A stretch of DNA of 64,000 bases, taken from the NCBI RefSeq assembly GCF_023702065.1, contig NZ_QFDM01000003.1, forward strand, positions 124,001 to 188,000. Direction: 5' to 3'. A program made the translations under genes and the position numbers. Positions 45,895-51,055 of this stretch are shown in pieces. How positions within the stretch are numbered: position 1 is the first letter of the stretch; every line of letters begins with the position of its first letter. This DNA is from Methanoculleus oceani (GTDB taxonomy: Archaea > Halobacteriota > Methanomicrobia > Methanomicrobiales > Methanoculleaceae). The notes under the pieces were generated by a model. That model ran no database searches. It was not told the DNA's origin and worked only from the letters and a program-made list of their open reading frames with translations.

Positions 45895-47394
45895 ATGATC
45901 CAGACACGGGGAAGCGGCATACTCCTGCATATCACGTCCCTGCCGTCGGTGTACGGCATCGGGGACTTCGGCCCGTCGGCGTACCGGTTCGTCGAGGCGC
46001 TTGAGCGGGCCCGGCAGCACTACTGGCAGATCCTGCCGCTCAACCCGACACAGACCGGGTACGCAAACTCTCCTTATTCCAGCCCGTCGGCGTTTGCCAT
46101 GAACACGCTCCTTATCAGCCCGGAGATGCTCGTCCGGGAGGGGGTCCTCAGGAAGGACGACCTGGAGCCGGCGCCCGACTTTCCGGAGGAGCGGGTGGCG
46201 TACGAGGCGGCCGTCTGGTACCGGGAACGGCTCTTTTCGCTTGCTTACGAGCGATTTCGTCACTCCGGGCCGGAGCGCGGGTATGAAACCTTCTGCGACG
46301 CGAGCGGGTGGTGGCTGGACGACCACGCGCTCTTCGTCGCGCTCAAAGACCGCTTCCACGGGCAGGAGTGGAGAGAGTGGCCGGAGGAGGTCCGGACCCG
46401 GCAGCCGGAGGCTCTCGACGAGATGCGCCGGAGCCTCGCCGATAAGGTCCTGAAGGAGCAGTACCTCCAGTACCTTGCCGCCCGGCAGTGGTCGGCCCTC
46501 CGCCGCTACTGCACCGGGCGGGGCATCCAGGTCATCGGCGACATCCCGATCTACGTCGCATACGACAGCGTCGACGTCTGGGCAAACCCCGGGATCTTCA
46601 AACTGGACGAAGACCTCCGCCCCACCGTGGTGGCGGGGGTGCCTCCCGATATGTTCAGCAAAACCGGGCAGCTCTGGGGGAACCCGGTCTACGACTGGCC
46701 CGTGCTCCGGGAACGGGGTTACGACTGGTGGACGAGCCGGATCGCCCGGTCCGGCGAGCTCTACGACCTCTTCCGGATCGACCACTTCCGGGCGTTCGCC
46801 GACTACTACGAGGTCCCCGCGGGCGATGCGACGGCCGAGCACGGCACCTGGGTCGACGGGCCGGGAGCGGAGTTCTTCGAGGCGCTCTCCCGGCGGTTCC
46901 CCTGCTTCGCCATCGTCGCCGAGGACCTGGGGGCGAACACCCCGGCGGTCCAGGGGCTTCTCGACCGGTTCGGGTTCCCGGGGATGAAGATCCTGCTCTT
47001 CGCGTTCGGGGAGGGGATCGCAAGAACCCCCCATATCCCCCACAACTACGACCCTAACCTCCTCTGCTACACGGGAACGCACGACAACAACACGGCGAGG
47101 GGGTGGTTTGAGGAGGAGGCGTCGGAGGAGGATAAGGAGAGGTTCTTCGCCTACGTCGGGCGGGAGGTGGCGGCGGGCGAGGTCCACCGGGAACTCGTCC
47201 TTCTCGCGATGAGATCGGTTGCCCGGGCATGCATCATCCCCATGCAGGATCTCCTCGGCCTCGGCGCCGCGGCGCGGATGAACTATCCCTCGACCACCGA
47301 CGGGAACTGGGAGTGGCGGATGACGCCGGGGGAGCTTGCCGGTGCCCCGTTCGACTGGCTCGCGAGGCTCACGGAACTCTCCGGGCGGGGATGA
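45895..47394 (+). CDS. malQ: 4-alpha-glucanotransferase (GH77)
   Basis: 499 residues. RGSGILLHITSLPSVYGIGDFGP opens a GH77 enzyme; catalytic residues are seen in FRIDHFRAFADYYEVP (nucleophile Asp), AIVAEDLG (acid/base Glu) and CYTGTHDNNTARGWF (stabilising Asp). Moves maltooligosaccharide units in glycogen metabolism. The ATG is preceded by GGGGAGATGACGG. Methanogens of this group store glycogen. It is the only glycogen gene in the window. Confidence 0.95.
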   Translation: MIQTRGSGILLHITSLPSVYGIGDFGPSAYRFVEALERARQHYWQILPLNPTQTGYANSPYSSPSAFAMNTLLISPEMLVREGVLRKDDLEPAPDFPEERVAYEAAVWYRERLFSLAYERFRHSGPERGYETFCDASGWWLDDHALFVALKDRFHGQEWREWPEEVRTRQPEALDEMRRSLADKVLKEQYLQYLAARQWSALRRYCTGRGIQVIGDIPIYVAYDSVDVWANPGIFKLDEDLRPTVVAGVPPDMFSKTGQLWGNPVYDWPVLRERGYDWWTSRIARSGELYDLFRIDHFRAFADYYEVPAGDATAEHGTWVDGPGAEFFEALSRRFPCFAIVAEDLGANTPAVQGLLDRFGFPGMKILLFAFGEGIARTPHIPHNYDPNLLCYTGTHDNNTARGWFEEEASEEDKERFFAYVGREVAAGEVHRELVLLAMRSVARACIIPMQDLLGLGAAARMNYPSTTDGNWEWRMTPGELAGAPFDWLARLTELSGRG

Positions 47395-47395
47395 A

Positions 47396-47593
47396 TCAGT
47401 ACCTGGCGGTCAGGACCTCGAGTTCTTCCCTGACGGTCCGGCGGACCATCTCCTCGATGGCGGTGTAGTCCCGCTTCGCTTTCTCGTGCTTTCCGATCAT
47501 CTCTTCCATCTGCATGATCCCGAGGGAGAGGTTCTTCCCGTACTTCAGGGCGACCTCCAGCGCCCCCTCGTCGATCCTGACGACTCTCGACAT
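47396..47593 (-). CDS. small putative ribbon-helix-helix protein
   Basis: 65 residues. SRVVRIDEGALEVALKYG resembles the strand-helix start of ribbon-helix-helix DNA-binding proteins; the rest is charged helix and the family was not recognised. It is convergent with malQ, the ends nearly touching. A remarkable set of phased heptamers lies just upstream, and a TATA-like AGTTAAATCC is about 25 bp before the ATG. The obvious hypothesis is an autoregulatory DNA-binding protein; this is inferred from context. Confidence 0.6.
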   Translation of the reverse strand: MSRVVRIDEGALEVALKYGKNLSLGIMQMEEMIGKHEKAKRDYTAIEEMVRRTVREELEVLTARY

Positions 47594-47623
47594 ATAAGGA
47601 TGTTTTCCGGGCCCGGATTTAAC

Positions 47624-47703
47624 TGTTACAGTTTTGTTACAGGGGAGTGGCGGTTGTTACAAAAATGTAACAATGCCGGAGAGGATGTAACATTTGTGTT
47701 ACA
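47624..47703. promoter_or_regulatory. phased TGTTACA operator array
   Basis: Six heptamers: TGTTACA at 47624 and 47635; TGTTACA 47655 with TGTAACA 47666; TGTAACA 47686 with TGTTACA 47697. Every pair has a 4-nt spacer, and starts are 11, 20, 11, 20 and 11 bp apart, so three 18-bp sites repeat at 31 bp (three helical turns). The middle site is a perfect palindrome TTGTTACA-AAAA-TGTAACAA. Confidence 0.8.
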
Positions 47704-47764: not shown

Positions 47765-48511
47765 CTACTTCACCCCTGCCTGCCGGGCCACGCCCCGGGC
47801 GGCCGCTGCGACTTCCTCCGGGTCACCGAGGTAATAGTGCTTCACGGCCTTCAGATCCCCGTCCAGTTCGTAGACGAGCGGGTAGCCGGTGGGGATGTTC
47901 AAGCCCGCGATCTCGTCGTCCGGGACCCCGTCCAGGTGTTTGACCAGGGCCCGGAGACTGTTTCCGTGGGCGGATACCAGGACGGGTTTGCCCTGGCGGA
48001 GATCTGCTGTGATGTGACTCTCCCAGTAGGGGAGCACCCGCTCGAGCGTGTCGTGCAGGGATTCGGTCGCGGGTAGGCTCTCCGGGTCCAGGTCCGCGTA
48101 GCGGGGGTCGAACCGCGGGTGTCCCGGATCGTCCCGCGAGAGCGGCGGCGGCCGCACGTCATATGCCCGGCGCCAGAGGTGCACCTGCTCCGCGCCGTAT
48201 TTCGCGGCGGTCTCCTGTTTGTTCAGGCCCTGCAGGGCGCCGTAACTCTTCTCGTTCAGCCGCCACGACCTGTGCACCGGGACGTACATGAGGTCGAGGT
48301 CGTCCATGACGATCCAGAGCGTCCGGATGGCCCGCTTCAGGACGGAGGTGTAGGCGACGCGGAACGTAAACCCGCCGTCGCTGAGGAGTTGGGCCGCCCG
48401 GTGGGCCTCTTCTATGCCGCGGGGCGAGAGATCCACATCGGTCCAGCCCGTGAACCGGTTCTCCCTGTTCCAGAGGCTCTCCCCGTGCCGCAAAAGGATC
48501 AACGCTACCAT
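47765..48511 (-). CDS. gpmA: 2,3-bisphosphoglycerate-dependent phosphoglycerate mutase
   Basis: 248 residues, the standard dPGM length, from the ATG at 48511 (GGGAGACGAG ribosome site). The phosphohistidine motif is [10 protein letters not shown] (His9), with [28 protein letters not shown] and the second His in [12 protein letters not shown]. Glycolysis and gluconeogenesis. A longer frame to 48682 has non-conserved residues. It is cofactor-dependent, whereas most methanogens use the independent ApgM type, so this gene is probably acquired from Bacteria. Confidence 0.94.
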
Positions 48512-48758
48512 CGCACTCGTCTCCCGTACCCGGTATGGTCCCCTCTCCCGGATAAATGCCATGCACGCACCGGGGTTCTCCTGCAGGAGCGGTCGGAATG
48601 CCGGGAGGCCAAAGGAACCGCCCGTGCGGGGACGCGGGGGAACCTGAACCTCAATCACCCGTATAATCGTCGGGTTTGACAAACGGATGACGCATAGGTT
48701 CGATATTTTTCGTAGTCAACCATCAATTTATCTCTCATTCCCGCTCATATGCTGCTAT

Positions 48759-49970
48759 ATGGCACCGAACAGAAGAAGGAACAGGAACTACATCCTCGCG
48801 GTGGCATCGCTGCTCGTCATCGTCGTGGCGTGCATCGTCGCCGCAGGATGTACGTCGACGCCCGGTGCGGCTGCCGGGCTCGCCGGGACGTCCTGGACGC
48901 TCGCGAGCCTCGCCGGTGAGGACGGCAGTATAACGCCGGTTCTCGACGACACGGCCGTCACGGCCGCCTTCAGCGTTGACGGCAGGGTCGGCGGGTCGGC
49001 CGGGTGCAACCACTACAGCGCGGGCTACACCGCGGAGGGCGCGGACCTCACCATCGAACCGGCCGTAAGGACCGAGATGTACTGCATCGACCCGCCCGGC
49101 GTCATGGACCAGGAGGATCGCTACCTCGCACTGCTCACCGAGGTCGCCTCCTACCGGGTGGAAGACGACCTGTTGATCCTCGCCGACCGCGACGGTGCCG
49201 ACCTGCTGATCTTCGAGCAGGTCGTCCGGACGCCCAACCTCCCGCTCGTCGGGACGGAGTGGGTGCTTGAGTCCTACAGCACCGGGGGAGACGCAATCTC
49301 TTCGCTCGTCGGCGGCACGACGATCACCGCGCAGTTCGCGGCCGACGGGACCGTCACCGGGAACTCCGGGTGCAACCACTACGGCGGGGAGTACGGCCTT
49401 GACGGAACGAAACTCTCGGTCTCCTCGCTCTACAGCACCCTGATGTACTGCACCGACCCGGGTGTCATGGAGCAGGAGGCGAGGTACATGAGTCTCCTTG
49501 GAAACGTCTCCTCCTACCGGGTGGAGAGCAACCGCCTGACCCTCACGGACGAGACGGGCACCGACCTGCTCGTCTTCGTGCAGGCACGGGAGGTGCCGCC
49601 GGCACCGCTCGCCGGGACCTCATGGACGCTTGAGTCCTACAGCCTGAACGGAGAGACGGTCTCCTCGGTGATCGTCGGAACAACGATCACGGCGGAGTTC
49701 TCACCGGACGGAAACGTCACCGGCAGTGGCGGGTGCAACAGTTACGGGGCCGGCTACAAGGTCGACGGCATGAGCCTCTCGGTCTCCTCGCTCTACAGCA
49801 CGAAGATGAACTGCAACAAGCCCGAGGGCCTCATGGAACAGGAGAACAGGTACTTCAACCTTCTTACGGCGGCAACAGGCTACCGCATCGAAGGAGACCG
49901 GCTCGACCTTCTCGATGAGGACGGAACGGGCCTGCTCTCCTACCGGGCGGAGCGCGGGGATCGGTCCTGA
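48759..49970 (+). CDS. triple META (HslJ-like) domain lipoprotein
   Basis: 403 residues. Signal YILAVASLLVIVVACIVAAGCTSTPG with lipobox AAGC near residue 30, then three META domains of about 115 residues, each with the hallmark GTxWxLxS, GxSGCNxY and (D/E)xxYxxLL pattern: AGTSWTLASL/AGCNHYSAGYT, GTEWVLESYS/SGCNHYGGEYG and AGTSWTLESYS/GGCNSYGAGYK. Each also has a MYC/MNC Cys, forming a likely disulfide. Surface protein of unknown role; META proteins in bacteria are heat-shock or motility linked. The ATG at 48759 is near a TATA-like CAATTTATC (48723-48731). Confidence 0.82.
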   Translation: MAPNRRRNRNYILAVASLLVIVVACIVAAGCTSTPGAAAGLAGTSWTLASLAGEDGSITPVLDDTAVTAAFSVDGRVGGSAGCNHYSAGYTAEGADLTIEPAVRTEMYCIDPPGVMDQEDRYLALLTEVASYRVEDDLLILADRDGADLLIFEQVVRTPNLPLVGTEWVLESYSTGGDAISSLVGGTTITAQFAADGTVTGNSGCNHYGGEYGLDGTKLSVSSLYSTLMYCTDPGVMEQEARYMSLLGNVSSYRVESNRLTLTDETGTDLLVFVQAREVPPAPLAGTSWTLESYSLNGETVSSVIVGTTITAEFSPDGNVTGSGGCNSYGAGYKVDGMSLSVSSLYSTKMNCNKPEGLMEQENRYFNLLTAATGYRIEGDRLDLLDEDGTGLLSYRAERGDRS

Positions 49971-50203
49971 TCGATCCTTCGTTTCCGGCAACGAGGGGTC
50001 GGTCGGAAGAAGCCGGGCCCTGCTCGATTTTTCTCATTTTACCGCATCCGGGCGCCCATCTCTCCCGGCGGGGCCGGCTCGGGACAGCGGCAGCGGATCG
50101 ACGCCGCTTCCTTCCATGCCTCAGGGAGAGGGCGATCGAGCGAATCTCGATGTAAATGGGGTAGTTTTTCTTCTCTCGCCCCCTACGCCTACCCGTGGTA
50201 ACG

Positions 50204-51055
50204 ATGGGGAGAGACGGGCACAACACACTCGCGAAGGCCGCGTTCCTGATCATCGTGGCGGCATGCCTCGTCTCGGTCGGCTACTCCGGCGGGACGGGTA
50301 TGCCCCCCGACGATGCCGGCCGGGTTGCCGAACCGCTTGCGGGGACGGCGTGGAACCTGATCGCGTTCCGTGCCGATAACGGCTCCGTCATCGCGTCCCA
50401 GAACGGGGCGGAGCCGCTCATCATCTTCGGCGAGAGCGGCACGCTCACGGGGTCTGCCGGGTGCAACCTCTACTCCGCCACCTACCGGATCAACGGTTCC
50501 GCCATCTCGGTGGAGCCGGTCGTCGCCACCGCGGCATACCCCGCATCGGAACAGGGGCTCTCGCAGCAGGAGAGCAGGTACCGGGAACTCCTCGTTGCGG
50601 CTGCCTCATACCGGGTCGAGGGCGACGAACTGGTGATCTCCGGACCGTCAGGTAAAGAACTGCTCGTCTTTCTGCGGGCGGAGCAGCCCGAGAGCGTGCC
50701 GCTACTCGCGACGACATGGCAACTGACCCGCTACACCACCGGCGGCGGCAGCGCCGTCGCATCCCCGATCCCGGGCACGAACGTCACCCTGGCGTTCGAT
50801 CCCGACGGCACGCTCTCCGGATCCGCCGGGTGCAACGCCTACTCGGCCCCCTACCGGGTCAACGAGACGGGGATCGCCGTGGAGCGGGTCATCGCGACGA
50901 AGGCCTCCTGCTCCGAACCGGCAGGGATCATGGAGCAGGAGGGTGCCTACCTGGACCTGCTCCGGTCGGCGGCGGGCTACCGGATCGTCGGGGGTACGCT
51001 CGCGGTCATCGACGGCAACGGCAGGGCGATCCTCTTCTATAAGGCGGAGCCGTAA
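50204..51055 (+). CDS. double META-domain exported protein
   Basis: 283 residues. A signal helix (AAFLIIVAACLVSVGY) with VAAC, a possible lipobox, is followed by two META domains (AGTAWNLIAF/AGCNLYSATYR and ATTWQLTRYT/AGCNAYSAPYR) closely related to those of the preceding gene. A GTG at 50195 is the alternative start. The pair likely arose by duplication and loss of one domain. The 230-bp gap suggests a separate promoter. Confidence 0.78.
   Translation: MGRDGHNTLAKAAFLIIVAACLVSVGYSGGTGMPPDDAGRVAEPLAGTAWNLIAFRADNGSVIASQNGAEPLIIFGESGTLTGSAGCNLYSATYRINGSAISVEPVVATAAYPASEQGLSQQESRYRELLVAAASYRVEGDELVISGPSGKELLVFLRAEQPESVPLLATTWQLTRYTTGGGSAVASPIPGTNVTLAFDPDGTLSGSAGCNAYSAPYRVNETGIAVERVIATKASCSEPAGIMEQEGAYLDLLRSAAGYRIVGGTLAVIDGNGRAILFYKAEP

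Follow-up and report, generated by a model that had tools for sequence, protein, structure and literature searches.

The window considered here is the whole 64,000-nucleotide stretch of the Methanoculleus oceani genome that was analysed, and the feature of concern is an array of repeated heptamers in the gap between two minus-strand genes, one for a phosphoglycerate mutase and one for a protein of 65 residues. Because of this position, the small gene is the only one that has the array upstream of it, at a distance of 30 bases from its ATG; the remaining neighbour, a GH77 gene, is convergent. An earlier sequence-only reading of this DNA had likewise placed the array upstream of a small protein. 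The features are as follows.

45895..47394, plus strand: 4-alpha-glucanotransferase (GH77) gene, convergent with the small gene and outside the unit
47396..47593, minus strand: gene of the 65-residue protein, ribbon-helix-helix (RHH)-like, belonging to no known family, presumed binder of the array
47617..47622, minus strand: TATA-like box TTAAAT of the predicted promoter, directly after the proximal unit and starting 29 bp ahead of the ATG
47624..47641, no strand: proximal pair TGTTACA-N4-TGTTACA, immediately next to the small gene's TATA-like box and kept in orthologues
47655..47672, no strand: middle pair TGTTACA-N4-TGTAACA, from the sequence and a genome-wide motif search
47686..47703, no strand: distal pair TGTAACA-N4-TGTTACA, from the sequence and a genome-wide motif search
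47765..48514, minus strand: 2,3-bisphosphoglycerate-dependent phosphoglycerate mutase gene, ending 61 bp before the array and outside the unit

Elsewhere in the window there are two adjacent META-domain repeat genes, at 48687-49970 (three modules, Pfam) and 50195-51055 (alike by eye).

The six heptamers, each either TGTTACA or TGTAACA, start at 47624, 47635, 47655, 47666, 47686 and 47697, with start-to-start steps of 11-20-11-20-11 bp, and both the positions and the distances are those originally given. Counting both strands, TGTTACA occurs 8 times in the 64-kb window, as against 1.19 ± 1.16 in shuffled sequence, and six of the eight copies are within the array. When the whole 2.46-Mb genome was searched for the paired motif at 11 bp (TGTWACA-N4-TGTWACA), only these three places were found at up to one mismatch; at up to three mismatches there were 68 matches compared with 70 for a reversed-pattern control, indicating no excess and no further targets above the control level in the genome. 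The three pairs had been described as an inverted, a reversed inverted and a direct repeat. However, TGTTACA and TGTAACA are one odd-length palindrome, TGT-W-ACA, in which only the centre base differs, and the "orientation" of a unit is therefore nothing other than whether that base is T or A. Among 75 orthologous 11-bp pairs the centre bases were AA in 37, AT in 17, TA in 16 and TT in 5, a distribution that fits independence. Each unit is therefore a symmetric site of its own, the three classes of pair arise simply because the centre base is free and are not separate kinds of site, and one symmetric reader per unit is favoured. The core conserved over all orthologues is GTWAC, with a T before it in 305 of 385 units and an A after it in 300 of 370.

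Of the class's 232 genomes, 77 have an orthologue of the small gene, and rarely in more than one copy. The protein is present in four families (f1, f2, f4 and f6) and absent from f3 and f5, the named loci of its relatives belong to Methanoculleus and other Methanomicrobiales, and a phylum-wide sample yielded no additional order possessing it. The sequence-only reading had made much depend on the array recurring upstream of orthologues, and it does so across the order: at least four GTWAC units lie within the 160 upstream bases of 67 of the 78 distinct orthologues, drawn from all four families, with exactly six in 44. Over the 78 upstream regions there are 385 units, compared with 32 ± 5 in dinucleotide shuffles. 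The distances between successive units are 10-11 bp (180 cases), 20-23 bp (115), 31-32 bp (16) and 43-44 bp (3), with no others, and of 112 pair-to-pair steps 98 measure 31-32 bp from centre to centre. Most of the window's genus has 11 bp between the units of a pair and the other groups have 10 bp, while the pair period is constant at 31-32 bp. These are one and three helical turns, and their conservation among orthologues bears out the suggestion that all the sites face one side of the DNA. The link to the small gene is near-exclusive, as the four-unit pattern occurs in 38 of the 140 genomes of the order, all 38 of which encode the protein, and the reversed pattern occurs in none. Within the window's genus, pairs (allowing one mismatch) were found in 26 of 27 protein-bearing genomes, and the 8 genomes that do not have the protein carried either no pairs or an isolated stray pair; the stray pairs in two of these (G017 and G018) were not taken for arrays, being single and isolated. 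The genomes of the genus from which the gene is missing include complete ones, so the gene must be dispensable.

An important consideration is what kind of protein might read such an array. The 65-residue protein has no match in sequence searches of Pfam, NCBIfam or the PDB, and when it was taken together with 15 homologues no RHH family of Pfam or NCBIfam scored above the cut-off, one member reaching CcdA at an E value of 0.13. When hhalign was run against RHH_1 proteins from related genomes, only 8 columns could be aligned, covering a SEGIR-type start of the second helix, with a probability of 34. Among 75 sequences V4, R6, Y18, S23, M29 and R51 are invariant, position 2 is S or T, and positions 5 and 7 are nearly always V, I or L; the conserved alternating positions 2, 4 and 6 of the N-terminal stretch make the pattern that would be expected of a base-reading strand. 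In an AlphaFold model of the monomer (pLDDT 81, pTM 0.45) residues 1-8 are extended and helices run from 9-18 and 22-64, but a second monomer model, of a Methanogenium homologue and of lower confidence, has a helix from residue 3 and an N-terminus unlike that of the first. Foldseek and VIA-align gave no informative match, the sole structural row being a RecN coiled coil at an uninformative Z of 2.2. The alternation of residues, the brief helix 9-18 and the S-x-G-I motif at the start of the second helix fit an RHH protein with a short first helix. The RHH fold originally suspected is plausible, but Pfam, NCBIfam and the PDB gave no match, the AlphaFold models are weak and the profile alignment is short. 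The protein is called RHH-like and no more, because the two models differ at the N-terminus and the alignment to the RHH_1 profile covers the SEGIR stretch alone. Relatives are absent from viral contigs and plasmid collections, on which ground a mobile origin of the gene was rejected.

The array is also placed regularly with respect to the promoter. At 57 of the 78 loci a TATA-like stretch of six A/T bases starts 0-3 bp beyond a unit and 25-36 bp ahead of the ATG, and the centre of the nearest unit is 3-6 bp before this stretch, on the BRE. In the window, TTAAAT at 29 bp upstream predicts a transcript start at the ATG or a few bases before it. In f1, which includes the window's genus, and in f6 the TATA comes after the whole set of pairs, whereas f2, f4 and g19 have the array shifted by a full period, so that two pairs flank the TATA and the last unit touches the ATG; such a displacement suggests that it is the lattice, and not any single site, that is kept.

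The reading that we prefer, with a probability of about 0.68, is that the array is an autoregulatory operator whose one face is filled cooperatively by RHH-like dimers, one per GTWAC unit, with the result that the protein shuts off its own gene. The protein would form RHH-like dimers, each reading one palindromic unit, and dimers lying on the same face of the DNA would bind cooperatively, as pairs (10-11 bp) and as pairs of pairs (31-32 bp). The filled array would cover the BRE/TATA region, and the start codon too in other families, and the bound protein would thereby keep TFB/TBP or RNA polymerase from acting at the promoter of its gene, turning the gene off once enough protein had been made. 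Autoregulation had already been put forward in the sequence-only reading, and comparison argues well for it in that the array precedes the gene order-wide, has no second copy in the genome and follows the gene in its distribution. It would not be universal, because a full array is missing from the small gene's own promoter in g4 and g25 and in some members of g12.

Activation, binding by some other factor and a chromosome-organising role are possible alternatives, and they rank in that order. One point against repression is that the three pairs of the window's genus, like those of f6, all precede the TATA, a region from which archaeal activators too can operate. The same operator and protein could in that case drive positive feedback, with TBP/TFB recruited by protein bound immediately ahead of the BRE. 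This is nevertheless unlikely, given that the nearest unit is centred on the BRE itself, only 3-6 bp from the TATA, and that in f2, f4 and g19, where a pair touches the start codon, protein bound there would block initiation. It is more doubtful again that another host factor binds the array and that the small protein is merely the product of the regulated gene. Room is left for such a factor by the fact that both the binding and the fold of the small protein are deductions, but the array and the gene share a phyletic pattern that includes losses inside the genus, and a separate regulator would need to have that same pattern as well as a single target, as the genome offers no further one.

Further evidence on what the operator might serve comes from the surrounding genes and from arrays found elsewhere. 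The small gene is seemingly alone in the window's genus and in f4, but it is followed by an asparagine-synthase-like gene in f6 and by a calcineurin-like metallophosphoesterase gene in f2, and since the downstream gene varies by family it is the array and the small gene that form the constant unit. In g25, whose named loci are from Methanogenium, the array has the small gene on one side and the start of the phosphoesterase gene on the other; an array so placed can serve the next gene, which supports the idea of a regulator with a movable operator. The array may also control the downstream gene, metallophosphoesterase or asparagine-synthase-like, in some families. A second array is found in g27 (L170 3021-3066, L171 3094-3140, L172 2991-3037) upstream of a gene for a 176-residue protein, after which comes a PAS/histidine-kinase-like gene. 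In two g12 genomes, G123 and G124, there is an orphan three-pair array (L169 3016-3104; L231 2403-2459) after an aminotransferase gene and with no small gene adjoining, and that of G123 also precedes a convergent gene resembling the end of a pyruvate carboxylase subunit. As a separate observation, two Methanocalculus-type genomes (g8) have a single GTWAC pair (L234 2525-2539 and L236 2497-2511) at the end of a nucleotide-sugar-dehydrogenase-like gene and just upstream of a second such gene.

There is one particular association that may bear on chromosome organisation. Upstream of xerA, the gene of the archaeal Xer recombinase, there are two to five pairs, 118-255 bp apart, in all six g4/g25 (f2) genomes examined (G037, G125, G112, G113, G116 and G117; L226 2739-3436, L229 2165-3040, L230 2158-2408, L241 2351-2483, L242 919-1439 and L258). 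The pairs are partly inside tandem repeats of 215-235 bp, and the two genera possessing them are those in which the small gene is without its own promoter array; in G117 no relative of the small protein was found. No pairs were seen upstream of xerA in the window's genome or in the other genera tested, and a linkage to xerA was rejected for the window's genome, in which the gene is not in the window but 299 kb away on the same contig and without upstream pairs. It was noticed after the fact that the small gene is 0.75-0.99 of a half-genome from the main orc1 in 11 of 13 complete genomes (G003, G019, G037, G039, G042, G044, G057, G076, G113, G116 and G119), a distance that may reflect synteny alone.

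Taken with the presence of a single array per genome, the intervals between the pairs at xerA, a chromosome-dimer recombinase, and the distance from orc1 are what favours a centromere- or terminus-type site, where a nucleoprotein complex would serve to partition or organise the chromosome and autoregulation would be secondary. We consider this improbable, a shade more so than an unrelated binder, in view of the phasing of the array to the promoter, the dispensability of the gene, the restriction of the xerA sites to two genera and the ability of synteny by itself to conserve a distance from the origin. Nor is there a ParA-like gene beside the array, none being found among its neighbours in the window (GH77 and phosphoglycerate mutase) or among those identified in other families. 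The partition-like complex entertained in the sequence-only reading is thus disfavoured, there being one chromosomal array with no such neighbour and, in most complete genomes, far from the orc1 origin gene. Slimmer still is the chance that the protein is mainly an organiser of the replication-terminus half of the chromosome, acting through the array at its own locus and the xerA pairs of two genera; if it were, an RHH-like protein would be linked to archaeal chromosome-dimer resolution, as MatP is to the E. coli terminus. The least credible proposal is that of an antitoxin-like gene autoregulating a toxin-antitoxin operon, which would suit the small size, the self-operator and the RHH-like pattern, but no toxin-like partner adjoins the gene in the window or the genus, the downstream genes elsewhere are metallophosphoesterase or asparagine-synthase-like, and the protein is missing from plasmid and virus collections.

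Arrays through which small DNA-binding proteins regulate their own genes, as preferred here, are of a known kind. MetJ, Arc, CopG and NikR bind symmetric or near-symmetric boxes, 8 bp in the case of the met boxes of MetJ, as RHH dimers placed side by side and cooperatively. The present protein has no detectable sequence relation to these, and the spacing and the sequences of its candidate sites are different. The viral RHH regulators of archaea SvtR, AvtR and F55 repress by promoter occlusion, oligomerising toward the BRE and TATA (PMC5569661), and the system proposed here would resemble them in its small protein, its own-promoter target, its repeated sites and the occlusion of BRE/TATA. In contrast to them, the window's protein is cellular and widespread in a methanogen order, and no sequence relation was found. 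The closest case of mixed-orientation heptads at a protein's own promoter is Omega (ParB) of pSM19035, whose parS heptads are bound by one RHH dimer each, occur in mixed orientations and overlap its own promoter (PMC9499535). Omega heptads, however, lack palindromic symmetry, follow one another without gaps in runs of 7-10 and function with ParA in partition (PMC9499535), whereas the units here are palindromic, chromosomal, without ParA and not contiguous, being separated by distances of 10-11 and 20-23 bp. CdrL of Halobacterium is an archaeal RHH protein with a single reproducible genomic binding site (PMC7439475), and CdrS and CdrL of haloarchaea are short chromosomal RHH regulators of archaea, as the present protein would be. 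These belong to PF01402 and sit with ftsZ2 (PMC7439475), but the window's protein has no PF01402 match and its gene no ftsZ beside it. The window's own genome has separate PF01402 genes, one of them with a 62-residue CdrS-like frame, and a CdrS-like protein from a related genome gave no BLASTP alignment with the 65-residue protein. A literature search found no paper on the GTWAC motif or on the protein family, and the family, the palindromic 5-bp code and the TATA-tied grid of 10-11 and 31-32 bp are likewise not found in the literature searched.

The array is thus a real lattice, deeply conserved and with no counterpart elsewhere in the genome, and it is probably the operator of an undescribed small protein family. 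A widespread but nameless protein of methanogens would thereby gain a testable function and an exact candidate DNA recognition code from sequence alone. A regulator for which its own promoter is the sole strong site in the genome would be unusual and could provide a simple model of archaeal self-control through a regular operator lattice, and the relocated arrays of related genera, before a phosphoesterase gene or beside xerA, show the movement of sites between targets.
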